This document shows, in pieces, positions 5,544-38,084 of a stretch of DNA of 64,000 nucleotides. The notes under the pieces were generated by a model. That model saw nothing but the letters and a program-made list of their open reading frames with translations, was not told where the DNA came from and did no database searches. The position numbers were made by a program, and so were the translations under genes. This stretch comes from Candidatus Pelagisphaera phototrophica (GTDB taxonomy: Bacteria > Verrucomicrobiota > Verrucomicrobiia > Opitutales > Opitutaceae). Within the stretch, counting starts at the first letter, position 1. Each line of letters begins with the position of its first letter. The stretch lies in assembly GCF_014529625.1 (NCBI RefSeq), contig NZ_CP076039.1, positions 3,968,001-4,032,000 on the forward strand, given 5' to 3'.

Positions 5544-6713
5544 ATGAACTTCGCCGCCCGAATCCAAAACCTCAAATCAGAAGGCGCCTATCGAGTGATG
5601 GGACTGGCTCAAGCCCTCGAGAAGGGAGGCCGCGACATCGTTCATCTGGAAATCGGACAACCTGATTTCAGTACCTTCCCGCCAATCGCTGAGGAAGGAA
5701 AGAGAGCCATCGACGCGGGCTTCACCCGATACAACCCTTCCGAAGGATACGCAGACCTGCGAGAGGCGATCGCGAACTACTCGAAAACCAGAGGGATCCA
5801 TGCAAGCCCTTCGCAGGTGGTAGTCGGGCCCGGAGCCAAACCCGTTCTCTTGTTCCCGTTACTTGCGCTTCTCGAAAAAGGGGACGAGGTTCTTTTCCCG
5901 GATCCCGGATTTCCTTCCTACCCTGCCGATATTGAAATAGCCGGTGGAGTACCGGTTTCAGTACCACTGGTAGAGGCCAACAGTTTCTCTTTCGACTTGG
6001 ACGAACTCGAAAGTCGTATCACTGAAAAAACGAAAATTCTGATACTTAATTCTCCCGCCAATCCCACTGGTGGAGTCATCTCGAAGGCCGATTTAATGGC
6101 AATCGCCGCCCTCGCTAAGAAACACGACTTCTGGGTGCTGAGCGATGAAATCTACTCACGCCTTGTCTACAGTGATTCCCCTGCGGACAGTATCTATGCA
6201 CTGGAAGGCATGAGCGAGCGTACCCTAATTGTAGACGGGTTTTCCAAATCCTATGCCATGACCGGATGGCGGCTCGGCTACGCGATCATGCCCGAAGCCC
6301 TCGCGGAAAAAGTGTCGCTTTTGCTTACGCATGCAGTCGGCTGCACGGCTGGATTCACGCAACGAGCGGGCATCGTTGCGATTCAACAGTGCGACGAAGC
6401 GGTATCCGATATCGTGAAGACCTATCAGCAAAGGCGCAATGAATTCGTGCGCGGACTCAATCAGATTGACGGATTTAACTGCCGCCTTCCTGAAGGCGCT
6501 TTCTACGCATTTCCCAACGTTTCCGAAGTTGGAATACCTTCGCCGGTTTTGGCGGAGAGACTGCTAAATGAGGGGGGGGTCGCCTGCGTCTCAGGAACGG
6601 ATTTTGGGATCAATGGCGAAGGCTATCTCCGATTTAGCTACGCCGCGTCTAGAGAACAGCTGGCGAGAGCGGTCGACCGAATTGGGTCATTTGTTTCAAA
6701 ACTGAATAAGTAA
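5544..6713 (+). CDS. PLP-dependent class I/II aminotransferase
   Basis: This is a fold-type I aminotransferase of about 389 residues. Visible landmarks are the LEIGQPDFSTFP substrate/PLP loop, VVGPGAKPVLLF, the NPTGG(V) asparagine that contacts PLP, LSDEIYSRLVY with the cofactor-binding Asp and Tyr, and GFSKSYAMTGWRLGY with the Schiff-base lysine in SKxxxMTGWR. The C-terminus carries YLRFSYAASREQL with the substrate-carboxylate Arg. The closest group is aspartate/aromatic aminotransferase-like enzymes; the substrate cannot be fixed from sequence. ATG 5544 (MNFAARIQNLKSEG) matches the usual family N-terminus, while the upstream in-frame ATG at 5520 adds eight residues. It stands alone, with a minus-strand pseudogene downstream. 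Confidence 0.87.
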   Translation: MNFAARIQNLKSEGAYRVMGLAQALEKGGRDIVHLEIGQPDFSTFPPIAEEGKRAIDAGFTRYNPSEGYADLREAIANYSKTRGIHASPSQVVVGPGAKPVLLFPLLALLEKGDEVLFPDPGFPSYPADIEIAGGVPVSVPLVEANSFSFDLDELESRITEKTKILILNSPANPTGGVISKADLMAIAALAKKHDFWVLSDEIYSRLVYSDSPADSIYALEGMSERTLIVDGFSKSYAMTGWRLGYAIMPEALAEKVSLLLTHAVGCTAGFTQRAGIVAIQQCDEAVSDIVKTYQQRRNEFVRGLNQIDGFNCRLPEGAFYAFPNVSEVGIPSPVLAERLLNEGGVACVSGTDFGINGEGYLRFSYAASREQLARAVDRIGSFVSKLNK

Positions 6714-6724
6714 CCGAATTGGAA

Positions 6725-7426
6725 CTACGCCAAAACCCAAGGAACAGGGTATATCTCAAACAGGCCCACGCCTTTATGATCGGTCACTGTATCCAAAACA
6801 CATGTATAGAGACCTGGTGGTAATACTGCAACCATCGCTGAATCATTCGACCCCAACTTGAGATCGAAAGCACCCACTTGGCTCGATAGATCAATAACCT
6901 CCCCGACCTGGCCACCCATGTCTCATTCGATGCGATCAGAGTTCCCTCAATATTATACAAAGTAATTCTAGGTTTTTCTAAAACCGCTTCCACACCCAGT
7001 TCTTTCAAGCCCGTAGCCGATGATGCTCTAATTTTTCCTCCAACGAGAATAGGGAACCTCATCGCTGTATGACGAACGATCCTTCTCAACTGATATCTAT
7101 TTCCATCAGGGGACCCTTCCGTCCGCCTGCTCGACAAAACCAGTGCATCTTCCCAGCGGCCAACCGCCTTGATTTTGATGGGCATCGCTCGATTCTCGAG
7201 ACAATCCATCGATCTCTGGATTTTGAGTGAGAACCTCGTCTACCGATTCTTGTATGAGACCAAACTTACCCGCCTTATTGTGATCCGTCGTGCTAGACTC
7301 TCGAGTTGATTCACACAGCCAAACGGCTACGATTGCCGCTAACAGAATTCCCGAAATTTTGACTGGCTGACTTGAATTCACTATCGCCCTAGACAATCGA
7401 CGTTTTTCAAAAGATCGAATTGCCAT
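6725..7426 (-). pseudogene. Frameshifted secreted protein with verrucomicrobial C-terminal beta domain
   Basis: Three minus-strand frames join into one degraded gene. Frame one (7426-7106) begins MAIRSFEKRRL with a hydrophobic anchor (KISGILLAAIVAVWL). Frame two (7209-6784) carries KELGVEAVLEKPRITLYN and EGTLIASNETW. Frame three (6919-6725) continues GGQVGEVIDLSSQVGAF, LKLGSNDSAMVAVLPPGLYT and GVGLFEIYPV. Together the last two reproduce the C-terminal repeat domain common in Opitutae secreted proteins (G-x-L-x-x-P-x-x-x-L-Y, IAxNDxW, QVGAFxLxxGSxDAALLxxLxPGxYT, GVxLVEVYEV). The shift between frames two and three falls just after NETW (about 6915). At least two frameshifts make a functional product unlikely. 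It precedes the TPR gene in the reverse direction without a shared operon signal. Confidence 0.68.
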
Positions 7427-7592
7427 CCTATCTATCGGGCTAACGCCGACTAATTTTAGCTAGACTCGCAACAACGACCCTAGGCTTAATGTAAACCCGA
7501 GTAAACGAACCATAAATCGGCCTCCAACTAAATAATGTGCAGCCGCTTGAGGCATAATCTAACGATCGAGGCCTTTACTGCGAAAGTTGAGC

Positions 7593-8753
7593 CTATTCTT
7601 CGTCTCTATCCATTTCATTTAGAATACGCTCCGACGCCTTGAAGGCTTCCGAATTATCCCGACGTTTCACTTTAGCAAATTCCACCCTCGCCTCTCCCCT
7701 TCGACCTAGATGCAGGATCGCATTCGCATACAGCATCTGCGCCCAGGCGCGTAGTTCCTTCTCCGACGGTTCAACGGTTTCCAACAATACGCTTCCCTTC
7801 TCAAGTGCGATCTCCGGCTTTTCCAGTTGAATGGCCACGTTGCCCGAGTGAAGCATCACCCAATCCCGCATTTCCCCTATGTAACTGATTTCGGGAATCG
7901 ACAGGATGTACTGGTACCCTTCGAACGCTTCCTTAAATCGCTCCGTTTTGCGATCCAGATCGGCCCGCATTGCGAGGGCGTCTACGTTTCGAGGAAATCG
8001 CTCAATGAAGCGATCCAGAATTTCTCTAGCCGCCTCTTTATCCTCTAACAACACCCATTGAACGCTAATTTGATAATACAGACTTTCATATCGGGTCAGG
8101 AACCCTTTCGTCTCCGAGTCTTTCAGCTGCTGTAGACCGAGCTCCATGTCGCCGGAAAACCGCAAAAGGGCCGCGAGCGGCTTGAGGTATGAAGGTGTTT
8201 TGTCCAGAAAGCAATTCGCTACACCCAGAGGCATTTTCGCGTCATGGAAATCTGGATGCTCTTTCAGAATCGCTTTCAAATGTCCCAAACCTGAAGTCGC
8301 CTTGAAAAACCCACTGAACCAACGCCGATGGTCAATGTAGTAACGGGCCAAATTGAGCTCGCACATCCCCAGAACATAGCGAGCTTCATGATCCTGAGGG
8401 TTTCGATTATAGTAGTTCTTTGCTGCTTCGATTGCGAGGTCAGACGCCTCTTGAAACTGCTCGGAGATTTCCGTATCAGATCCTTCGGCATAATCGTCGA
8501 GCCGAAAGAGCCGGGCGGCCTTCAAACAGAGTCCCAATGGCGATTCAGGGAAGTCTACAATGATCTGCTCAATCAACTTCGGCGTTCTCAGGTCGAGATT
8601 ATAGCCCAATTCCATTACCTCTTCGACCACCTCTCGGGGAACCCCCAAAAAATCCTCCGCACAAAGTGAACTGGTGAATGAAATGGCTTCCCAGAAAAGG
8701 ATCACCATGAGGCATTGTCTTCCCCTGAACCTCATTTTTCTCAACCGAATCAA
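7593..8753 (-). CDS. Exported tetratricopeptide-repeat protein
   Basis: The 386-residue product starts with basic residues and a hydrophobic stretch ending SSLCAED, a plausible signal peptide of about 32 residues. The remainder is almost all helical. TPR-like pairs are recognisable at HEARYVLGMCELNLARYY, then ESLYYQISVQWVLLEDKEAA, then NVDALAMRADLDRKTERF and ELRAWAQMLYANAILHLGR. This points to a periplasmic or outer-membrane associated scaffold for protein-protein contacts; no enzymatic motif is seen. Its start codon overlaps the stop of the upstream gene (ATGA at 8750-8753), so the two are translationally coupled. The product is otherwise uncharacterised. Confidence 0.72.
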   Translation of the reverse strand: MIRLRKMRFRGRQCLMVILFWEAISFTSSLCAEDFLGVPREVVEEVMELGYNLDLRTPKLIEQIIVDFPESPLGLCLKAARLFRLDDYAEGSDTEISEQFQEASDLAIEAAKNYYNRNPQDHEARYVLGMCELNLARYYIDHRRWFSGFFKATSGLGHLKAILKEHPDFHDAKMPLGVANCFLDKTPSYLKPLAALLRFSGDMELGLQQLKDSETKGFLTRYESLYYQISVQWVLLEDKEAAREILDRFIERFPRNVDALAMRADLDRKTERFKEAFEGYQYILSIPEISYIGEMRDWVMLHSGNVAIQLEKPEIALEKGSVLLETVEPSEKELRAWAQMLYANAILHLGRRGEARVEFAKVKRRDNSEAFKASERILNEMDRDEE

Positions 8754-9166
8754 AAGGAGCCGCCCCCCTTTTGCGCCCTTTCATTCTCCTGGATGAGCCA
8801 CTGTAAGGAAACTGCCTCCATTATGCTATATTCATCTTTCAAGGGCCCATACTTCTCGAAGAGATAAACGATCAGCGAAAGCATCTGAGGTCGATGCACG
8901 ATTATCAACATCTGATTTCCACCTTGGATCGATTCGTCGACCCCATCGCCCATGAACAAATTCACCGCATCGAAGGCAGAACAAGCCGACTTCCCCGCAT
9001 TATCGAAATGATCTTCGTAGCGACAGTGCGGTTCAACGTAGCAGCGAACCAACTCGTGAGGATCGTTGAATATGTCGCTCAGCATACTAATGGAGCCGGA
9101 ATGCTTTCGCTCCGTCTTCAATAGCGCATCCTCCAATGGCCCAAGCCAATCCGATGAGATATACAT
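8750..9166 (-). CDS. Hypothetical protein coupled to the TPR gene
   Basis: The 138-residue soluble protein has no signal peptide or membrane segment. Its most distinctive stretch is acidic and histidine/cysteine bearing (VRCYVEPHCRYEDHFDNAGK), followed by a mixed helical C-terminus (MLIIVHRPQMLSLIVYLFEK). I do not recognise a family. The frame is intact from ATG 9166 and ends in an ATGA overlap with the TPR gene, which is good evidence that it is real and acts with that protein. Both genes run away from the pyrH region. Confidence 0.55.
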   Translation of the reverse strand: MYISSDWLGPLEDALLKTERKHSGSISMLSDIFNDPHELVRCYVEPHCRYEDHFDNAGKSACSAFDAVNLFMGDGVDESIQGGNQMLIIVHRPQMLSLIVYLFEKYGPLKDEYSIMEAVSLQWLIQENERAQKGGGSF

Positions 9167-9350
9167 GTAGGTTCTTCCTGATACTGAGTTTGTCGAGACA
9201 GCCTCTCGAAACCCTGTCTAGTTAAATCTTTCGGCTAATCAAAGAAGAAATGAAACGGTTATGAATTGCGGTTCGATTTCGAAATATTTCGTGATTTAAA
9301 GTGCAAGAATCACCGACCGCGTCCAACCCGCAGAGGTTAGTTCACCGAGC

Positions 9351-23808: not shown

Positions 23809-25338
23809 CTATAGCGAAAAGTGGCTTATCAGGAATTCGACATCCAATTCTGGATACAATACGAATCGGTCTAGAAGGCTTTGCACACGAGCTCTTCCCT
23901 CCTCTACGACAGTTTCAGAGATATCGTATTTCACTTTGCTGGGCTGACCCGCATTTTTACCCTTAGTGAGTATTTTTGGCGTAGTACTTGAGAGTATGAG
24001 CTTAAAAATCGAAGCTATCTCTTTCATCTCCTCGGCTCCCATTCCCAATGATGTGATCGCGGGGGAACCAACTCGCAATCCACTCGTGTAGTGGGGGCCA
24101 TTGGGATCGAAAGGTAACGAGTTTCGGTTCAACGTAACGCCACATTCACGAACGGCGGCTTCCGCCTGTCGTCCGTTGAGACCGAACGGAGTCACGTCGA
24201 TCAGCAAGAGGTGGTTGTCGGTTCCACCCGTGCAGATCTTGAGACCTTCGTCGATCATGGCGTCCGCGATGGCTCGCGAATTATTCACCACGTTCTGCGC
24301 GTACTCTTTAAACTCAGTCTCGTTTGCTTCCTTAAAAGCAACTGCTTTGGCTGCCATAACGTGCGGCAGCGGTCCGCCAATCACGAGAGGACACCCTTTA
24401 TCAATATACTCAGCAAACTCCTTTTTACAAAGGATCACTCCACCACGAGGGCCTCGGAGTGTCTTGTGTGTGGTCGTTGTCACTACATCAGCAAACGGCA
24501 TCGGATTGTAGTCGCCCTCGAAAACACCCCCGGCAACCAGTCCTGAGAAGTGGGCCATATCAACCAACAGAACTGCTCCCACCTTATCAGCTATTTCCTT
24601 CATCCGACGGAAATCTACCTTTCTCGGATAGGCGCTATAACCCGCTAACAGGATCAATGGCTTGATCTCCAGTGCCTGAGCTTCCAGCTCATCGTAGTCG
24701 AGCAACCCGGTCTCCTTGCTGACTGAATAGTTGTAGGCATCAAAAAACTGGGCGGAAATGTTAAATCGATAACCGTGAGTCAAGTGGCCTCCGGAGTAGT
24801 AATCCAGTCCGAGCATTTTCTGATTACCCATCGCCGCGCGCACCTTGTTCCAATCCTCTCGGGACATTTTGGAAGGGTTGGCTTCACCCATTTCCTCGAT
24901 GAGAGGTGTGCCGACTCTAGCCTGCAGGATGGCCCAAAAAGCGATCAGGTTCGCATCCGCCCCCGAGTGAGGCTGCACATAAGCGTGCTCCGCATCAAAA
25001 AGCCGGCAGGCTTGCTCACAGGCTTCGCTCTCGATCGCATCGATGTTGTCGCAACCCGCGTAGTAGCGAGCCCCAGCGAATCCTTCCGCGTACTTGTCCG
25101 TAAGCAAATTGCCCATGGCCGCTTGAGTGTTCAGCGTGGTAAAATTCTCGGACGCAATGAGCTTGAGATTGCTGCGTTGGTCCTGGAGCTCTTTCACAAT
25201 CGATGCGGCGATCGGCGCGTTTACCGAGGCAACTTGTTGCAGGTTCGCAACATAGCTCAGCATGGCGGGATTCACTTCATCCGGCGAGCGGGACGAGAGA
25301 TATTCAGAGACAGGTGACGTCGTAGTCAGATTAGACAT
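23809..25338 (-). CDS. glyA: Serine hydroxymethyltransferase (long form)
   Basis: This PLP enzyme interconverts serine and glycine with tetrahydrofolate. Motifs include LIASENFTTLNTQAAMGN, YAEGFAGARYYAGC, VQPHSGADANLIAF, the TTTTHKTLRGPRGG lysine site and GLRVGSPAITSLGM. At 509 residues it is about 90 longer than the E. coli enzyme. The extra length is an N-terminal extension (about 40 residues), an insertion after GTPLIEEM where MGEANPSKMSREDWNKVRAA appears, and a C-terminal tail. Chlamydiae/Verrucomicrobia GlyA proteins are similarly long, so this is a lineage trait, not a fusion. The upstream 240 bases hold no obvious gene. Confidence 0.94.
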   Translation of the reverse strand: MSNLTTTSPVSEYLSSRSPDEVNPAMLSYVANLQQVASVNAPIAASIVKELQDQRSNLKLIASENFTTLNTQAAMGNLLTDKYAEGFAGARYYAGCDNIDAIESEACEQACRLFDAEHAYVQPHSGADANLIAFWAILQARVGTPLIEEMGEANPSKMSREDWNKVRAAMGNQKMLGLDYYSGGHLTHGYRFNISAQFFDAYNYSVSKETGLLDYDELEAQALEIKPLILLAGYSAYPRKVDFRRMKEIADKVGAVLLVDMAHFSGLVAGGVFEGDYNPMPFADVVTTTTHKTLRGPRGGVILCKKEFAEYIDKGCPLVIGGPLPHVMAAKAVAFKEANETEFKEYAQNVVNNSRAIADAMIDEGLKICTGGTDNHLLLIDVTPFGLNGRQAEAAVRECGVTLNRNSLPFDPNGPHYTSGLRVGSPAITSLGMGAEEMKEIASIFKLILSSTTPKILTKGKNAGQPSKVKYDISETVVEEGRARVQSLLDRFVLYPELDVEFLISHFSL

Positions 25339-25578
25339 GATGGAAGCATTTATAGTTTTAAAAAGTGGCTCTACCCAGGCGCTCGATAGAACCGCGAAGC
25401 TTCCTAGCGGTCAATCCCGCCTTACTCGCCAGTCGCAAAAAATAGGGGAACATCGAATGCAAAACCCGAAGAGGAAGTCAACCCATAGATAAACGCTGGC
25501 CGCGATACCTTTCCGCTCCAGACACACTTTGAGGCAAAAACGTTAGGTCAAACGGTAACAAAAGGACGTCGATTTCTC

Positions 25579-32030: not shown

Positions 32031-32972
32031 ATGAATATTCAAACTGAAAATCCTTACTTCGAAATAGGTGCCGTATCCAAAATCACTGGACTATCTCCCA
32101 ATACCCTAAGGACTTGGGAACGTCGAAAATTTATTGAAGCTGGGTTTCGCTCCCCCACAGGACGCCGGCGGTATTCCCAAGAGCAAGTAGAACAACTCGC
32201 CCTGATGAAACGCCTGACGAACATGGGCGACTCGATCAGTTCCATTGCGAAACTCAATCTGTCCGAGCTCAGAAGCCGAGTATTAGAGTACGAAACTCGT
32301 CACACCGAGGCTCGGACCAAACGATCCTCATCTGACAAAACCAAAGTTCTCCCCATCGGGAATATCGCTAAAACTTGGTCCGGCAACCTACCGAGCCAAT
32401 TCCTCATAGCAGAAAAAGACGAAGAGCACCCAGACATTCTTATGGTGGATCTCGACGTCTCCGCAATCGAGTGCCGACGACGAGTCAGCGTTGCCGCTAT
32501 CGAATATCCAGACGTTCCGATGGCCTTAGTATATGACTACGCGCCAAGCGAACTGTTAAGACAGTTTTCCAAGGAAGGCCGGTTTCTCATTCGAATACCC
32601 TGCTCTCCTGAACTGCTGACGCACTACCTCAACGCTGCCCTCGCCAATGCGACGCACCAGGCAGATCCCACCGCTCAATCAGAAATTTCTTTAAACTCAG
32701 CGCCTCGTCTTTTCACAGACAAGCAACTGGCTACCATCGCCGCTTCAAATCCCAACATCAAATGCGAGTGCCCACACCATACCTCTGCCCTCGTCGCCAG
32801 TCTTGCCTCATTTGAAAACTACTGCCGACGTTGCGAGATCGAGTCTCCCACCGACAAGGAGGTCCACGAATACCTGGGAACAGAAATAGGAAAAGCGAGG
32901 GCAATCGTTGAAGATGCTCTCTTATACCTTTGCCAGAAAGACGATCTCATCATTCCTCCCGACACGCCGTGA
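32031..32972 (+). CDS. MerR-type transcriptional regulator (light/oxidative stress lipid cluster)
   Basis: The 313-residue protein has an N-terminal MerR winged helix (YFEIGAVSKITGLSPNTLRT, WERR, GRRRYSQEQVEQLALMKRL). The C-terminal domain is not an evident cobalamin-binding domain: the His motifs of CarH/LitR are missing. Instead it carries ECECPHHTSALVASLASFENY and VHEYLGTEIGKARAIVEDAL. That CxCPxH block is seen in MerR proteins that accompany DUF1365/CFA genes in proteobacteria and may bind a metal or cofactor. It is the first gene of the operon and its stop overlaps the next start (GTGA at 32969-32972). It probably controls the operon it heads; the signal is unknown, light or singlet oxygen by analogy. 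Confidence 0.82.
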   Translation: MNIQTENPYFEIGAVSKITGLSPNTLRTWERRKFIEAGFRSPTGRRRYSQEQVEQLALMKRLTNMGDSISSIAKLNLSELRSRVLEYETRHTEARTKRSSSDKTKVLPIGNIAKTWSGNLPSQFLIAEKDEEHPDILMVDLDVSAIECRRRVSVAAIEYPDVPMALVYDYAPSELLRQFSKEGRFLIRIPCSPELLTHYLNAALANATHQADPTAQSEISLNSAPRLFTDKQLATIAASNPNIKCECPHHTSALVASLASFENYCRRCEIESPTDKEVHEYLGTEIGKARAIVEDALLYLCQKDDLIIPPDTP

Positions 32973-34255
32973 AACAAAGAGTCGCAATCATTGGCACCGG
33001 TATCGCCGGGATGGCTGCCGCCTACTACTTGCGGCGCGAATGCGACGTCACACTCGTGGAAAAGAACAATTATGCGGGGGGTCACACCAATACCGTTTCC
33101 GTTTCGCTCGACGGCGACTCTATTCCCGTCGACACGGGTTTTATGGTATACAACGATACGACCTACCCAAACCTCGTCCAACTACTTAAGGAACTTGGGG
33201 TCAGTTCCTATAACACTTCCATGTCTTTTGGAGTGTGCAATGCGAACCGAGATCTTGAGTACGCGTGCTCCGGATTCTCCACATTTTTCGCTCAGAAGAA
33301 AAATCTCCTGAATCCCGTTCATTGGAAATTGTATCGGGACATCTTGAAGTTTTTCAGGGCGGCCGATGCACTGATCGTAGACGAGCCCTCTCCCGAATTC
33401 TCACTAGGCGATTTCGCGGAGCAATACTCGCTCAGCCATCAGGTAATGAATGATTTCGTGCTGCCAATGGCGGGTGCCATTTGGTCCACGCCTGGAGGGG
33501 AAATTTGTAATTTCCCCGCACTTCCGCTTCTGCGATTCATGAAGAATCACCAGATGCTCGGAGTGGGAATTCAGCTCCAATGGAAAACAGTAAAAGGCGG
33601 AAGCAGTCAGTACAAAGAAAAGCTGCTCGCCTCACTCCCTAACAAAACGCTCCTAAGCCAGAATATCAAAGCCATCGGGCAGGACACCGCATGTGCCTAT
33701 TTCTTCGACGAAGCAGGAAACAAGCAAAGCTACGATTTCATCATCGTCGCCACCCACGCGGACCAGGCCCTACGTCTACTAGAGTGTCCGAGCGAACTGC
33801 AGAACCAATTGCTGTCCGCATTTCGGTATAACAAGAACCATGTGAAGCTGCACTCTGACGCTTCAGTAATGCCGCAATCAAAACAAGCGTGGGCTTCTTG
33901 GAACGTTCTTAATCGAACAAGCCCCCTCGGAGAGACCCTTTCCTCTACGCACTACTGGATGAATAGCCTCCAGAATCTCAATACGAAAGAAAATCTTTTC
34001 GTCAGTGTAGACTACCCCGGCTCAATCAATCCTGAAAAGACTTACTGGCAGACACGGTACGAACATCCTCGATTCGATGCCGCTGCCATCTCAGCTCAGC
34101 CACGACTACCCGAGCTCAACGCTTCCGGCCGAATCCGTTTCTGTGGCAGCTACTTTCGAAACGGGTTTCACGAGGACGCCCTTTGGTCAGCTCTCAATGT
34201 AGTCGACGATCTCAGCAACCGCAAAAAACTTCCTCATGAACTCGTGCCTGTATAA
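32969..34255 (+). CDS. FAD-dependent amine-oxidase-like oxidoreductase
   Basis: From GTG 32969 the protein has 428 residues. The dinucleotide fold begins RVAIIGTGIAGMAAAYYL (GxGxxG, residues 9-14), followed by an acidic strand end (VTLVEKNNYAGGHTNTV) and the DTGFMVYND segment. It ends with RIRFCGSYFRNGFHEDALWS, the FAD-contacting C-terminal motif of this NAD(P)/FAD-dependent group. Homologous genes lie beside DUF1365 and CFA-type methyltransferases in many bacteria and belong to the ChrR/sigma-E singlet-oxygen regulon in Rhodobacter. The likely role is a membrane-lipid fatty-acyl redox step. GTG 32969 is chosen because it makes a GTGA overlap with the MerR stop; an upstream open frame from 32930 overlaps the MerR coding region. 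Confidence 0.85.
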   Translation: MKQRVAIIGTGIAGMAAAYYLRRECDVTLVEKNNYAGGHTNTVSVSLDGDSIPVDTGFMVYNDTTYPNLVQLLKELGVSSYNTSMSFGVCNANRDLEYACSGFSTFFAQKKNLLNPVHWKLYRDILKFFRAADALIVDEPSPEFSLGDFAEQYSLSHQVMNDFVLPMAGAIWSTPGGEICNFPALPLLRFMKNHQMLGVGIQLQWKTVKGGSSQYKEKLLASLPNKTLLSQNIKAIGQDTACAYFFDEAGNKQSYDFIIVATHADQALRLLECPSELQNQLLSAFRYNKNHVKLHSDASVMPQSKQAWASWNVLNRTSPLGETLSSTHYWMNSLQNLNTKENLFVSVDYPGSINPEKTYWQTRYEHPRFDAAAISAQPRLPELNASGRIRFCGSYFRNGFHEDALWSALNVVDDLSNRKKLPHELVPV

Positions 34256-35024
34256 GTCCGAGGTCATGCATCGACGGACCGCTCCAAAGCGGCATTCCTT
34301 CAAGTATAGGCTATTTATGTTCTACTTGGACCTCGATGAGATCGAATCGCTAGATCGAAGCTACAATTTTATAGGGCACAACCGTTTCGCCCCGTACGAA
34401 TTTAGAGATGATGATCACTACAATCCCTCGAAGACGGATCTCAAAACGAGCATTCGGAATTATCTTAGAGAGCAAGGTATCGAAGATCCTGTAGGCAAAA
34501 TCCACTTGCTAACTCACTTGAGAACCTGGGGGCACCTATTCAACCCCGTTTCTTTTTACTTTGTCACCGCCCAAAATGGTTCGCCAATCTGCTCAATCGC
34601 TGAAGTGGGAAATACGTTCAACGAGCAAAAGCTCTTCATTGTGAAGTCGCAAACCGATGGCCGCAGCCATACCGACACGATTAAGAACTTCTACGTTTCC
34701 CCATTCAGCGAACTGGACACACAATTTCATTTCAAGATCGCAACTCCTCGCGAGCATATGCGGATCGCCATTAGCCAATCAAAGAATGGCGAGACCTACT
34801 TTAACAGTGTTCTCACAGGCGGGAAAAGCCCCTTGACGGGCAAAAGCTTGCTTATGAGCGCACTGCAATTTCCACTGCTAACCCTTAAAATTGTAGGAGC
34901 GATCCACTGGCAAGCCCTCCGACTTTACCTGAAGGGAGTCCCGTACTTCCGGAAATCCGAAAATCCGCATCTCCAGACCAGCACTCACCCCTACCTCACA
35001 AAGGAAACCTACGAAGAACACTAG
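34236..35024 (+). CDS. DUF1365 family protein
   Basis: The 262-residue protein matches DUF1365: it opens CLYKSEVMHRRTAPKRHSFK with the conserved H-R...H.F.Y block, then LFMFYLDLDEIE, NRFAPYEFRDDDHY, LLTHLRTWGHLFNPVSFYF and VSPFSELDTQFHFKI. Its biochemical function is not established; it is nearly always found between the FAD oxidoreductase and a CFA-type methyltransferase, which suggests a shared fatty-acyl pathway. It overlaps the previous gene by 20 bases and is followed by the methyltransferase after three bases, so translation is tightly coupled. Confidence 0.9.
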   Translation: MNSCLYKSEVMHRRTAPKRHSFKYRLFMFYLDLDEIESLDRSYNFIGHNRFAPYEFRDDDHYNPSKTDLKTSIRNYLREQGIEDPVGKIHLLTHLRTWGHLFNPVSFYFVTAQNGSPICSIAEVGNTFNEQKLFIVKSQTDGRSHTDTIKNFYVSPFSELDTQFHFKIATPREHMRIAISQSKNGETYFNSVLTGGKSPLTGKSLLMSALQFPLLTLKIVGAIHWQALRLYLKGVPYFRKSENPHLQTSTHPYLTKETYEEH

Positions 35025-35027
35025 ATC

Positions 35028-36299
35028 ATGAAGTCCTTGTACAAAAAAGTCATCATTAAGAGCCTGAAAAAAGCTCGTCTCGGACAACTCAACCTTTCAC
35101 TGACCGACGGCGACAGCATCGTTTGCGGACAGCCCGACGGAAAAAAGATCCAAAATCTCTATGTTCATAGCGACGCATTTTTTAACGAATTGGCCCACAA
35201 GGGAGGAATAGGTTTGGGAGAGGCTTACCAAGAGAGGTATTGGAGTTCCGATGATCTTACAGGCACCTTGGAGTGGCTTCTCATCAACAGCAAGTACATT
35301 GCTCCGAGCACCAGCCCCTACTTCGCCTCCTTAATTCGAAAGGTGAATTCCATCGCGACCGGATTGCTTCACCACAGAAATCGTAACAACGTCGAGGGCA
35401 GTCGCAATAATATCCACGCCCACTACGACCTTGGCAACCGCTTCTACCAGACTTTTCTCGACCCGAGTCTCACCTATTCTTCAGGTTACTTCGAGAGTTC
35501 CGAGACCCAATTGGAGGAAGCCCAAGCAGAGAAGTACGATCGACTATGCCGCAAGCTAGGGATCGATTCCACGAGCCATATCCTTGAAATTGGCTGCGGC
35601 TGGGGTGGCTTCGCCATTTACGCGGCTAAACACTACGACTGCTGTATCACGGGTACCACCATCTCCAAAGAGCAGTTCGACCGAGCTACTCAAAGGGTGA
35701 AAGACGAAGGACTGGAGCATCGTATCGACATAACGATGACAGACTACCGAAAGCTCCAGGGAACCTACGATCGTATTGTTTCTATCGAGATGCTGGAAGC
35801 GGTTGGTCAGGAATTTCTGGGCGAATATTTCAAACAGATCGAGGCCCTGCTAGAACCCAATGGTCTCGCCGGAATTCAAGTTATCACCTGTCCCAACCCT
35901 CTTTACGAGGCATACAAGGACCGAGTAGACTGGATTCAAAAGCATATTTTCCCGGGTTCCCATCTCCCTTCAACTCATGCGCTGTTAGAAAATGCCGAAA
36001 AAAGCGGGCAACTAGATTTGTACCACATGGAAAGCTTTGGGCTCCATTACGCTCGCACATTGAGAGAGTGGCGTAACCGTTTTCTCGATCAATGGGATGA
36101 AATCGAGAAAATGGGATTTGATGATTTTTTCAAACGGAAATGGGAATACTACCTTGCCTACTGCGAAGCGGGCTTTCTCCAACGGCATGTCAATGTATGC
36201 CAGCTGGTCTTTGGACGGGCAGATGAAACCGCCTATCAGTTCGAGCAGAAGCAAAATACCTCCCGCTTAGAGCGCCCTGAATTAACCCAAGCCATTTAG
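35028..36299 (+). CDS. Cyclopropane-fatty-acyl-phospholipid synthase-type methyltransferase
   Basis: The 423-residue enzyme has the CFA synthase layout: an N-terminal lipid-binding region (GLGEAYQERYWSSDDLTGTL, NIHAHYDLGNRFYQTFLDP), the SAM motif LEIGCGWGGFAIYAA, the VSIEMLEAVG segment, and the active-site-side sequence KHIFPGSHLPS followed by MESFGLHYARTLREW. It transfers a methylene or methyl from SAM to the double bond of a phospholipid acyl chain. It lies three bases after DUF1365. A second, more divergent relative follows six bases downstream, so two different methyl-transfer products are possible. Length agrees with the family (380-430). Confidence 0.9.
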   Translation: MKSLYKKVIIKSLKKARLGQLNLSLTDGDSIVCGQPDGKKIQNLYVHSDAFFNELAHKGGIGLGEAYQERYWSSDDLTGTLEWLLINSKYIAPSTSPYFASLIRKVNSIATGLLHHRNRNNVEGSRNNIHAHYDLGNRFYQTFLDPSLTYSSGYFESSETQLEEAQAEKYDRLCRKLGIDSTSHILEIGCGWGGFAIYAAKHYDCCITGTTISKEQFDRATQRVKDEGLEHRIDITMTDYRKLQGTYDRIVSIEMLEAVGQEFLGEYFKQIEALLEPNGLAGIQVITCPNPLYEAYKDRVDWIQKHIFPGSHLPSTHALLENAEKSGQLDLYHMESFGLHYARTLREWRNRFLDQWDEIEKMGFDDFFKRKWEYYLAYCEAGFLQRHVNVCQLVFGRADETAYQFEQKQNTSRLERPELTQAI

Positions 36300-36305
36300 T
36301 ACATT

Positions 36306-37325
36306 ATGAACGCAATAACATTCGCTGAAAATGGACACCTTCCCTACTGGCTCCTTCGATTTGGCATCCGCCAGCGCGTAGGCAAAAAGCTGTCCATCGA
36401 AACTTCCAAAACAACTGAAGAGCGCCACGCCTTCCTGGAGCGGCTAAGAGAGAGCCCCATTGCCCAGGATACCGAGAAGGCGAACGAGCAGCACTACGAA
36501 GTGCCGGCCGCTTTCTACAAACTTGTTCTCGGTCCCAATTTGAAATACAGCTGCTCGTACTGGCCCCGCGACTGCGAATCCTTGGCAGCGGCTGAGGAGG
36601 CCGCTTTGAAGCAGATCGAAGACCGCGCCCAACTGACGGACCACCAGAAAGTCCTCGACCTCGGTTGCGGCTGGGGATCGTTTTCCCTTTGGGCCGCGCC
36701 TCGATACCCGAACTCCAACTTTCTCGCCGTCTCAAATTCACACAGCCAAGCGACGCACATTCGGGAACAAGCAACATCGAGAGGGATCGACAACCTCAAA
36801 GTGTTTACCTGCGATGTGAACGAGTTCAGCCCCGACATGGTTTTTGATCGAATCGTCTCCGTCGAGATGCTGGAACACGCTCGCAACTACGAAAAGCTTT
36901 TCCAACGGATCAGCTCCTGGATGCAAGACGATGCCAAAATGTTTATACATGTGTTCTCGCATCGGCGATACGCGTACGACTACGACTCCAACAACCCTAA
37001 AGAGTGGATGGCACGCCAGTTCTTTACCGGTGGCATTATGCCTTCGCACGACTTGCTCCCTAGTTTCGATCAGCACTTGAAGCAGGATGCTTCATGGCTG
37101 TTAGATGGGACCAACTATCAGAAGACAGCGGAAGCCTGGCTTGACAACATGAACCAGAATGAGGCCGAGGTAAAAAGCGTCTTCGACGCCGTTTACGGTC
37201 CGAAGGAGAGCAAACAATGGATGTGGCGATGGCGTTTATTTTTCTTGGCTTGCTCTGAGCTCTTCGGCTACAAGGATGGTTCCGAATGGGGCGTGTCTCA
37301 CTACGTCTTGAGTAAGCGAATTTAG
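36306..37325 (+). CDS. Second, divergent CFA-like SAM methyltransferase
   Basis: The 339-residue protein shares the SAM motif VLDLGCGWGSFSLWAA and the VSVEMLEHARNYEKLFQRIS segment. Its N-terminus is shorter (NEQHYEVPAAFYKLVLGPN) and its C-terminus, GYKDGSEWGVSHYVLSKR, differs from typical Cfa. This shorter group occurs in the same clusters and has been linked in proteobacteria to methylation steps that lead to methyl-branched or furan fatty acids; here that is an inference. It is separated from the first methyltransferase by six bases. Substrate order between the two enzymes cannot be told from sequence. Confidence 0.85.
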   Translation: MNAITFAENGHLPYWLLRFGIRQRVGKKLSIETSKTTEERHAFLERLRESPIAQDTEKANEQHYEVPAAFYKLVLGPNLKYSCSYWPRDCESLAAAEEAALKQIEDRAQLTDHQKVLDLGCGWGSFSLWAAPRYPNSNFLAVSNSHSQATHIREQATSRGIDNLKVFTCDVNEFSPDMVFDRIVSVEMLEHARNYEKLFQRISSWMQDDAKMFIHVFSHRRYAYDYDSNNPKEWMARQFFTGGIMPSHDLLPSFDQHLKQDASWLLDGTNYQKTAEAWLDNMNQNEAEVKSVFDAVYGPKESKQWMWRWRLFFLACSELFGYKDGSEWGVSHYVLSKRI

Positions 37326-37358
37326 GTTAACGGATATTTTGCGAACAAAGGAACTGGC

Positions 37359-38084
37359 ATGCTGATCATTATCGGTTTTTTCGTGGCTCACTGGTACGCG
37401 AGCGTTTTCGCTCAGAGTTTCTTCCTGCATCGCTACATGGCGCACAGGATGTTTCTGATGAATCCGTTTTGGGAACGGTTTTTTTACCTGTTCACTTTCA
37501 TCACACAGGGATCCTCATTTCTCCATCCGAAATCCTATGCTCAACTCCATCTAGAACACCACAAGCACAGCGACACCGAGCACGACCCTCATTCGCCTCA
37601 CTTTTTGAAGGATGTGATTTCGATGATGATCAACACCGCTCGCATCTACCTTGAGTTCAAAAACGGTAAACGAGCATCCAGCTCTCCCTATATTCAAGGG
37701 CTACCCACTTGGGATCGGATCGACCGGATCGGCAACAGCCACTGGGTTCGGCTAGTCTTTTGTGGAGCATACATCGCTCTCTACCTGTGGGTTAGCCCTC
37801 CGCTTTGGATGTACGCCTTGCTACCCGTCCATTTCCTTATGGGCCCCATACATGGAGCTTTTGTGAACTGGTGTGGACACAAGTATGGATACCGGAACTA
37901 CGACACGAGTGACCAATCTCGTAACACGTTTATTTGGGATGTCTTTTTTGTGGGCGAGACCTTTCAAAACAACCACCATAAGTATCCCAACCGACTCAAC
38001 TTTGCCACTCGCTGGTATGAGCTCGACTTGGGCTATCCCGTCATTTGGTTGCTCAGCAAATTGGGAATCGTAGTCCCACGTTGA
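37359..38084 (+). CDS. Small membrane fatty acid desaturase
   Basis: The 241-residue integral membrane protein carries the three histidine boxes of acyl desaturases: FFLHRYMAHRMF (HxxxxH), HLEHHKHSDTEHD (HxxHH) and FQNNHHKYPN (HH). Hydrophobic segments lie between the first two boxes and again at WVRLVFCGAYIALYLWV. This is the short stearoyl-CoA-desaturase-like group with a diiron site. It is the last intact gene of the operon, 33 bases after the second methyltransferase. It would supply or modify the double bond used by the methyltransferases. The stop overlaps the start of a decayed CHI-like fragment. Confidence 0.87.
   Translation: MLIIIGFFVAHWYASVFAQSFFLHRYMAHRMFLMNPFWERFFYLFTFITQGSSFLHPKSYAQLHLEHHKHSDTEHDPHSPHFLKDVISMMINTARIYLEFKNGKRASSSPYIQGLPTWDRIDRIGNSHWVRLVFCGAYIALYLWVSPPLWMYALLPVHFLMGPIHGAFVNWCGHKYGYRNYDTSDQSRNTFIWDVFFVGETFQNNHHKYPNRLNFATRWYELDLGYPVIWLLSKLGIVVPR

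Follow-up and report, generated by a model that had tools for sequence, protein, structure and literature searches.

Furan Fatty Acid Genes in Proteobacteria and a Candidate Operon in Candidatus Pelagisphaera

Furan fatty acids (FuFAs) are believed to shield cells against the reactive oxygen that light generates. In Rhodobacter and Rhodopseudomonas, cis-vaccenate is turned into a monomethyl FuFA by UfaM, UfaD, and the DUF1365 protein UfaO, the oxygen used by UfaO coming from O2, and FufM adds a second methyl group (PMC7380195). In Rhodobacter sphaeroides, ufaM (RSP2144) is separate from ufaD and ufaO (RSP1091-1090) (PMC12089945), and deletion of chrR raises 9M5-FuFA (PMC7380195). Rhodopseudomonas palustris has RPA2571-2570-2569, in the order D-O-M by locus number, with fufM (RPA0924) apart. 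In Halomonas sp. YLGW01, ufaD, ufaO, and ufaM are consecutive and UfaM makes 11-methyloctadec-12-enoate in Escherichia coli; the consulted part of that report names no FufM-like gene, desaturase, or MerR regulator (PMC12089945). Here we analyze a 64,000-nucleotide (nt) stretch of the genome of Candidatus Pelagisphaera phototrophica (Verrucomicrobiota; NZ_CP076039.1, positions 3,968,001 to 4,032,000; hereafter the window), which holds a six-gene operon with a MerR-family regulator, a flavin adenine dinucleotide (FAD) oxidoreductase, a DUF1365 protein, two methyltransferases related to cyclopropane fatty acid (CFA) synthases, and a desaturase. We consider it likely that this operon makes membrane-phospholipid FuFAs under the control of its own MerR protein.

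The six open reading frames (ORFs) of 32031-38084 (+) run head to tail, and all are real in the window's ORF list:

32031..32972, +, MerR-family regulator, 313 amino acids (aa) (Pfam MerR_1)
32969..34255, +, UfaD-like FAD oxidoreductase of the Amino_oxidase family, 428 aa from GTG 32969 (Pfam Amino_oxidase)
34236..35024, +, UfaO-like DUF1365 protein, 262 aa, proposed furan-ring-forming oxygenase (PF07103, 1.2e-72)
35028..36299, +, CFA1, UfaM-like CMAS methyltransferase, 423 aa (Pfam CMAS, 8.2e-84)
36306..37325, +, CFA2, putative FufM/coclaurine-N-methyltransferase-type enzyme, 339 aa (Pfam CMAS, 1.6e-40)
37359..38084, +, small membrane fatty acid desaturase, 241 aa (PF00487, FA_desaturase, 1.1e-15)

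The FAD ORF is listed from a TTG at 32930, and the GTG at 32969, which overlaps the MerR stop codon as GTGA, is the likelier start. The successive junctions are then a 4-nt overlap, a 20-nt overlap, and gaps of 3, 6, and 33 nt. The first-pass annotation had described six tightly packed genes with MerR first, forming a single lipid-modification operon, and the coordinates, junctions, Pfam matches, and conserved gene order bear out this description.

The functions proposed here for the FAD, DUF1365, and CMAS proteins are those of the R. sphaeroides genes, and with CFA2 all four enzyme functions of R. palustris would be represented, in the same D-O-M order. In the window, however, all four enzymes, the FufM-like one included, stand in one operon, together with a desaturase and a MerR protein. 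A plasmid of Acinetobacter sp. WY4 (L170; G and L numbers are our handles for genomes and loci) has the order desaturase-FAD-DUF1365-CFA-DUF1295-CFA2, from which the window operon differs in lacking DUF1295. Salinivibrio kushneri (L304) has MerR-photolyase-...-FAD-DUF1365-CFA; the window operon has no photolyase, and the Salinivibrio MerR lacks the C.CP.H motif of the window's MerR. A full-text literature search returned no description of FuFAs in Verrucomicrobia (its matches were unrelated by title), and as far as that search goes, the earlier statement that such a pathway is not described for this lineage stands. What would be new is a single-operon, MerR-linked FuFA pathway outside Proteobacteria, its enzymes being known from a few proteobacteria.

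CFA1 Is of the UfaM Type

Because the other CMAS matches in the host genome (4.09 Mb, a single contig) span at most about half of the model, CFA1 and CFA2 are its only full-length CMAS enzymes. CFA1 and E. coli Cfa share 33% identity over 370 columns. In a 90-row tree, which carried a long-branch warning for Lactiplantibacillus Cfa and L275, CFA1 falls on a branch apart from Cfa (support 100/98). At the positions of E. coli Cfa residues 139, 240, and 266, it has Ser, Ala, and Gln. All 153 CFA1 rows from clusters (149 distinct, counting that of the window) have Ala240 and Gln266, and His is found at both positions in all five reference Cfa proteins. In every row examined, this residue pair separated UfaM-like enzymes from the cyclopropane synthases as which they are annotated. 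Proteins from Roseicitreum and Paracoccus, members of the Paracoccaceae, which we take to be the family of R. sphaeroides, show the CFA1 residue pattern, and those from Roseovarius and Sulfitobacter show the Cfa pattern. Judged against such proxies of R. sphaeroides UfaM, tree and residue pattern make CFA1 UfaM-type, not Cfa-type.

In E. coli CFA synthase, bicarbonate is bound by Glu239, His266, and Tyr317 and is thought to deprotonate the reaction intermediate (PMC11387697). CFA1 keeps Glu239 and Tyr317 and has Gln in place of His266, leaving the CFA-synthase ligand set incomplete. Without this ligand, ring closure should be hindered, as expected of UfaM, and the residues predict that the product of CFA1 is a methyl-branched olefin, not a cyclopropane.

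These data bear on another reading of the locus, an ordinary membrane-stress operon in which both methyltransferases are cyclopropane-making CFA synthases and the remaining genes have lipid functions unrelated to this. Both enzymes match the CMAS family and have annotated relatives named cyclopropane synthases, CFA2 retains all three bicarbonate-ligand positions, and Gln266 also occurs in one Cfa-like protein. Yet CFA1 has neither His240 nor His266 and branches apart from Cfa, CFA2 forms its own clade and is nearest to coclaurine N-methyltransferase among solved proteins, and neither enzyme reaches the NCBIfam cut-offs for CFA synthase. We regard this reading as highly improbable. CFA synthase was rejected as the identity of CFA1 on its separate branch and absent histidines.

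Seven CMAS proteins were taken from outside the clusters. Those of G011, G046, and G056 carry Ala240 and Gln266, fall with CFA1, and are probably products of detached ufaM genes. The other four are Cfa-like, with His240.

CFA2, a Probable FufM-Type Relative of Coclaurine N-Methyltransferases

The first-pass annotation took the second methyltransferase for a divergent CFA-like enzyme. Our analyses instead place it with the FufM/coclaurine-N-methyltransferase kind, and the role of FufM is already published. The best PDB match of CFA2 is coclaurine N-methyltransferase (2e-60, compared with 4.9e-24 for E. coli Cfa, to which it is 28% identical over 223 columns). Residues 8-336 align with 6gkv (2e-60), the EMLEH/ELFEH motif included, and in the tree CFA2 forms a clade of its own (100/100) not grouped with Cfa. 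A CFA synthase variant was ruled out by these matches and this clade. The tree comparison of both methyltransferases that had been proposed earlier separated both from reference Cfa, with proxies standing in for the furan enzymes.

The Arabidopsis protein LIME1 is presumably a coclaurine-N-methyltransferase-like family protein. FufM is 37.87% identical to AT4G33110/LIME1, its published homolog (PMC10940516). In Chlamydomonas, CFA1, Cre09.g398700, and a DUF1365 gene are induced by singlet oxygen in a SAK1-dependent manner; one table labels Cre09.g398700 as CFA2, and a different table gives it as CPLD27, "coclaurine N-methyltransferase" (PMC4067076). On the coclaurine-N-methyltransferase match, the LIME1-FufM identity, and the co-induced Chlamydomonas genes, we assign CFA2 as FufM-like, a placement made by family and by the published FufM-LIME1 identity and not against RPA0924 itself. 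By analogy, CFA2 is predicted to methylate a monomethyl FuFA to a dimethyl FuFA. Plant coclaurine N-methyltransferase, with which it aligns, N-methylates an alkaloid, whereas CFA2 would C-methylate a furan lipid. The assignment would tie FufM-type enzymes to the plant alkaloid N-methyltransferase family.

An alternative that we consider unlikely is that the products of the operon are methyl-branched, conjugated, or monomethyl furan lipids, with CFA2 serving as an N-methyltransferase for the head group of a phospholipid or for some other amine. Indeed, the closest solved relatives of CFA2 are N-methyltransferases, the plant ones acting on alkaloids, and 20 of the 80 named CFA2 loci have no DUF1365 gene within 8 kb (some contigs are cut). 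However, FufM, for all its identity to AT4G33110, is reported to methylate 9M5-FuFA, the Chlamydomonas gene named for coclaurine N-methyltransferase is induced by singlet oxygen together with CFA1 and a DUF1365 gene, and CFA2 travels with UfaD-, UfaO-, and UfaM-type genes across phyla.

The FAD Enzyme, DUF1365 Protein, and Desaturase

Identity to an adjacent pair from Qingshengfaniella (Rhodobacterales), encoded beside a sigma factor and ChrR, is 36% for the FAD protein and 30% for the DUF1365 protein. The kinship claimed at first pass for the FAD, DUF1365, and CFA genes, with proteobacterial light/singlet-oxygen regulons and furan chemistry, holds. In the window, the UfaD-like gene adjoins the UfaO-like gene, as in the Ufa pathway. 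The AlphaFold2 model of the DUF1365 protein is good (predicted local distance difference test, pLDDT, 89.5). Its best matches are beta-barrels (a designed barrel, spirocyclases, nitrobindin, and Ycf58; Z 6-7), with no Foldseek match at E <= 0.001, and a PDB sequence search with the protein returned nothing at E <= 1. The desaturase contains three histidine boxes, HRYMAH, HLEHH, and QNNHH, which are present in 26 of 26 rows of its type (the window's included), and its best PDB match is the acyl-CoA desaturase 4ymk (2.5e-7). Four FabA/FabZ-type matches are present in the host genome.

Gene Order in the Genus and Gene Neighborhoods across Phyla

The search of other genomes that had been suggested for the six-gene order found it, complete, in 7 of 11 genus genomes, the host included (G000, G002, G003, G004, G006, G009, and G010). 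G008 keeps the order with a broken CFA2, and G001, G005, and G007 gave no full CFA2 match. G022, G029, G047, L173, and L175 also have the six genes in this order with DUF1295 inserted between CFA1 and CFA2. Four Candidatus Neomarinimicrobiota loci (L184, L190, L192, and L226, the last with its desaturase interrupted by a contig end) have FAD-DUF1365-CFA1-CFA2-desaturase, the window order minus MerR, and in G018 and L176 a MerR gene was not found within the fetched stretch. The broken CFA2 of G008 (L155, 8126-9059, -) is divided over two reading frames and contains an internal stop, in an operon that is otherwise whole. This copy is either a pseudogene or an assembly error, and relatives have intact ones.

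Among 33 genomes of the family (f1; e.g., L125, L146, and L160) outside the genus, 18 have a cluster that includes DUF1295 and a desaturase of the acyl-CoA type, and 12 have no desaturase in the fetched stretch. G022 and G029 have MerR and the small desaturase type, and G018 has the small desaturase alone. In the tree, CFA1 of the genus branches with Pelagicoccus and not with the sampled family clusters of the acyl-CoA-desaturase and DUF1295 kind. The operon may thus have been acquired separately.

DUF1365 was found in 88 of 387 Verrucomicrobiota genomes; among 14 control genomes only Caulobacter matched. Within 8 kb of DUF1365 at these 88 loci, at least 82 have FAD, 72 CFA1, 53 CFA2, 46 DUF1295, and 45 a desaturase. 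We also analyzed 80 named CFA2 loci, the best 80 of the matches and chosen by CFA2 alone, of which at least 60 have DUF1365 within 8 kb, 57 FAD, 64 CFA1, 61 DUF1295, 39 a desaturase, and 24 DUF2878. All these counts are lower bounds, since both sets include stretches truncated by contig ends. When the genes had to share a strand and be separated by no more than 2 kb, FAD came before DUF1365 at 81 of the 88 Verrucomicrobiota loci, and strict FAD-DUF1365-CFA1 succession was found at 61. DUF1365 and CFA1 are joined in a single reading frame in 15 of the 88 genomes (L075, L076, L078, L092, L099, L100, L123, L124, L127, L128, L130, L134, L138, L143, and L145).

The CFA2 loci span Gammaproteobacteria, Planctomycetes, Acidobacteria, Bacteroidetes, Gemmatimonadales, Marinimicrobia, Omnitrophota, Verrucomicrobia, and others, and a Shinella locus reads sigma factor-ChrR-DUF1295-CFA2. 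Because 60 of the 80 CFA2 loci, in many phyla, have DUF1365 and 39 a desaturase, CFA2 and the desaturase are no local addition to the operon, contrary to what was first supposed. A lineage-specific origin of the desaturase was likewise ruled out by its recurrence in many phyla, including on the Acinetobacter plasmid.

A MerR Protein with a Conserved Cys/His Domain

The MerR protein consists of a helix-turn-helix (HTH) domain (residues 11-76), a receiver-like domain (residues 102-206), and a C-terminal Cys/His domain. The latter two map as follows:

32334..32648, +, receiver-like (CheY-fold) middle domain of MerR (AlphaFold2 model; VIA-align Z 11.6, 104 residues, root mean square deviation 2.4)
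32763..32933, +, C-terminal CxCPxH...C domain of MerR (C245 to C301), candidate metal/cofactor site (motif, alignments)

The full-length AlphaFold2 model was weak (pLDDT 72; predicted template-modeling score, pTM, 0.40; six sequences), and only its receiver-like domain was used, in which the Asp at the expected phospho-acceptor place varies in the alignment. The Cys and His residues of the C-terminal domain are C245, C247, H250, C265, C268, and C301. CECPxH...C (C245, C247, H250, and C268) is invariant in the alignments examined, including one of five distant MerR members; near relatives retain C265 and C301, which some members lack. The C.CP.H motif occurs in 19 of the 14,544 ORFs of the fetched loci (three genomes counted twice), and all 19 are MerR proteins of the window regulator's family.

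The light control suggested in the first-pass annotation is to be put more cautiously. No B12-binding family was found in the MerR protein by Pfam at E <= 0.1, and the NCBIfam CarH model matches residues 9-76 only; a B12-dependent CarH or class I LitR was rejected for want of the B12-binding domain. The protein shares with LitR/CarH-type regulators (classes I-V) the MerR HTH and, with a Burkholderia MerR, full-length co-linearity, but differs in combining a receiver-like middle with a Cys/His C-terminal domain and in having no B12-binding family. Its link to light is this co-linearity: the gene for the MerR of Burkholderia anthina (26% identity over the full length, 1e-25) is clustered with those for photolyase, GTP cyclohydrolase I, and sigma factors and with FuFA genes. 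CECPxH...C is common to the MerR proteins of the window and of Burkholderia, Caballeronia, and Methylomagnum.

Precedents exist for light-responsive MerR proteins. Class II LitR of Pseudomonas, held not to bind B12, governs light-inducible genes including ufaM, and class III LitR of Burkholderia has a light-dependent spectrum that is described as unexplained in origin (PMC9758184). The blue-light response of Vibrio cholerae requires a MerR protein and ChrR (PMC5241685). Given the likeness to the B. anthina cluster and the LitR and V. cholerae precedents, control of the window operon by light or singlet oxygen is plausible.

The enzymes could also act as we propose while the operon lies outside light or singlet-oxygen control, its MerR responding to a metal, to a compound that reacts with thiols, or to a fatty acid; we regard this as a tentative but serious alternative. 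No photoreceptor was detected by Pfam among the six operon genes, no B12-binding family was found, and the conserved CxCPxH...C site could bind a metal or react with electrophiles. Weighing the other way are the co-linearity with the B. anthina regulator and 12 other MerR proteins (one cut by a contig end) whose genes lie no more than 5 kb from CFA2 or DUF1365 in the fetched loci and which lack C.CP.H.

DUF1295 and the Search for an Operator

In 22 of the 80 named loci, CFA1 and CFA2 are separated by DUF1295 (PF06966), a reductase-like gene that also matches steroid dehydrogenase, though more weakly. In the host genome, the single DUF1295 gene lies at 2.63 Mb. Among the matches listed, its product shares about 28-42% identity with most cluster copies, 54% with the L209 copy directly behind CFA2, and 58% with the copies that G004 and G018 have close to the operon. 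The host gene is divergent from an MFS_2 transporter and Lipocalin_2 gene pair (L267, G000:C1:2626000-2639000, 6103-9174), both of kinds found with FuFA genes in proteobacteria as well. In view of these neighbors and of the major facilitator superfamily (MFS) gene that follows FAD-DUF1365 in two Rhodobacterales records, the host DUF1295 locus may be a satellite of the FuFA system.

The operator test gave a shared regulator no support. TGAAC-N6-TGAAC repeats precede MerR in L151/L174 (a single genome), L152, L153, L155, and L173, and are absent upstream of MerR in the window, L061, L082, L149, L150, L064, L156, and L175. A related T..ACA repeat is present in the DUF1295 promoter of the host genome and upstream of L061; both repeats were sought only after the upstream sequences had been inspected. 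TNAACA-N5-TNAACA occurs 6 times genome-wide and 4 times in the reversed control, so that there is no genome-wide operator signal and the regulon link is unsupported.

A Proposed Pathway to Furan Fatty Acids

Onto the gene identities, family placements, active-site residues, conserved gene order, and associations across phyla described above, we map the chemistry of the characterized proteobacterial homologs. The desaturase would supply or enrich a cis-monounsaturated acyl chain. CFA1 would methylate the double bond with S-adenosylmethionine and, because it lacks the bicarbonate-binding His of CFA synthase, release a methyl-branched trans-olefin without cyclopropane closure. Removal of a further two hydrogens by the FAD enzyme would then produce a conjugated diene carrying the methyl group, into which the DUF1365 protein would insert O2-derived oxygen to form the furan ring, and CFA2 would add the second methyl group, yielding a dimethyl FuFA. 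Since UfaO draws its oxygen from O2, the pathway should need air. We infer that MerR detects light, or stress from singlet oxygen or oxidants, by means of its Cys/His domain, directly or by a partner, and switches the operon, which would thereby serve membrane defense. The sequence of desaturation, methylation, and oxidation of acyl chains suggested at first pass is thus retained as the likely pathway.

The position of the ring would depend on the substrate. In three Coraliomargarita strains, which belong to the same class, 18:1w9c makes up 15.5-22.6% of the fatty acids (PMC10288369). If the host likewise contains 18:1 delta-9, the predicted products would be 7M7/7D7-type furan acids and not the 9M5/9D5 of Rhodobacter and Rhodopseudomonas. 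To our knowledge, no 7M7/7D7-type furan acids are known from bacteria.

Several observations weigh against the reading as a FuFA operon. The furan product is predicted from the genes, and kinship to R. sphaeroides UfaM, UfaD, and UfaO and R. palustris FufM was judged by family, by proxies, and by identities in the literature. In 54 of the 80 named loci, DUF1295 is found within 300 nt of CFA2; it is missing from the window operon. The operator count described above gave no genome-wide signal. Partners also occur apart: CFA2 is lacking within 8 kb at 35 of the 88 DUF1365 loci, and DUF1365 at the 20 CFA2 loci already mentioned (some contigs are cut). The window's MerR type is found near DUF1365 at only 4 of the 88 loci. 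The Cfa-like protein with Gln266 (L271, G049), one of the four from outside the clusters, combines it with His240 and Cys139, and Gln266 alone is thus no proof of the UfaM type. E. coli overexpressing Halomonas UfaM contained cyclic acids besides 11-methyloctadec-12-enoate, in a host that has its own cfa (PMC12089945). The fatty acid table for the three Coraliomargarita strains, which may or may not carry the operon, lists no methyl-branched monoene or furan acid (PMC10288369). Finally, the host genome has one further PF00487 match outside the operon, a second desaturase.

If our preferred reading of a MerR-controlled FuFA operon is correct, this membrane defense extends to Verrucomicrobia and, by gene neighborhood, to Planctomycetes, Acidobacteria, Bacteroidetes, Marinimicrobia, Omnitrophota, and others, and the compact five-enzyme gene set might make dimethyl FuFAs in one host. 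It also brings up two uncharacterized players, the Cys/His MerR protein and DUF1295. A bolder proposal, to which we give little credence, is that an undescribed MerR sensor (HTH, pseudo-receiver, and CxCPxH...C cofactor site) directly senses light or singlet oxygen and switches a self-sufficient dimethyl-FuFA operon whose desaturase sets the ring position (7M7/7D7), bacterial FufM-type enzymes being the stock from which plant benzylisoquinoline-alkaloid N-methyltransferases came.

Surrounding Genes and Other Features

The operon flanks are unrelated: upstream lies a gene whose product combines 3-keto-disaccharide hydrolase and cytochrome c domains, and downstream lie sulfatase genes on the opposite strand. 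Elsewhere, the host genome has two DNA_photolyase (PF00875) matches, at G000:C1:155513-155977 and 1282519-1282905. Within the window, a ZMP/ZTP riboswitch match (25366-25446, -; 40.3 bits, with a gathering score of 39) sits upstream of a serine hydroxymethyltransferase gene (ORF 23809-25338, -; PF00464, 9.7e-122), a usual folate-linked setting for this riboswitch.

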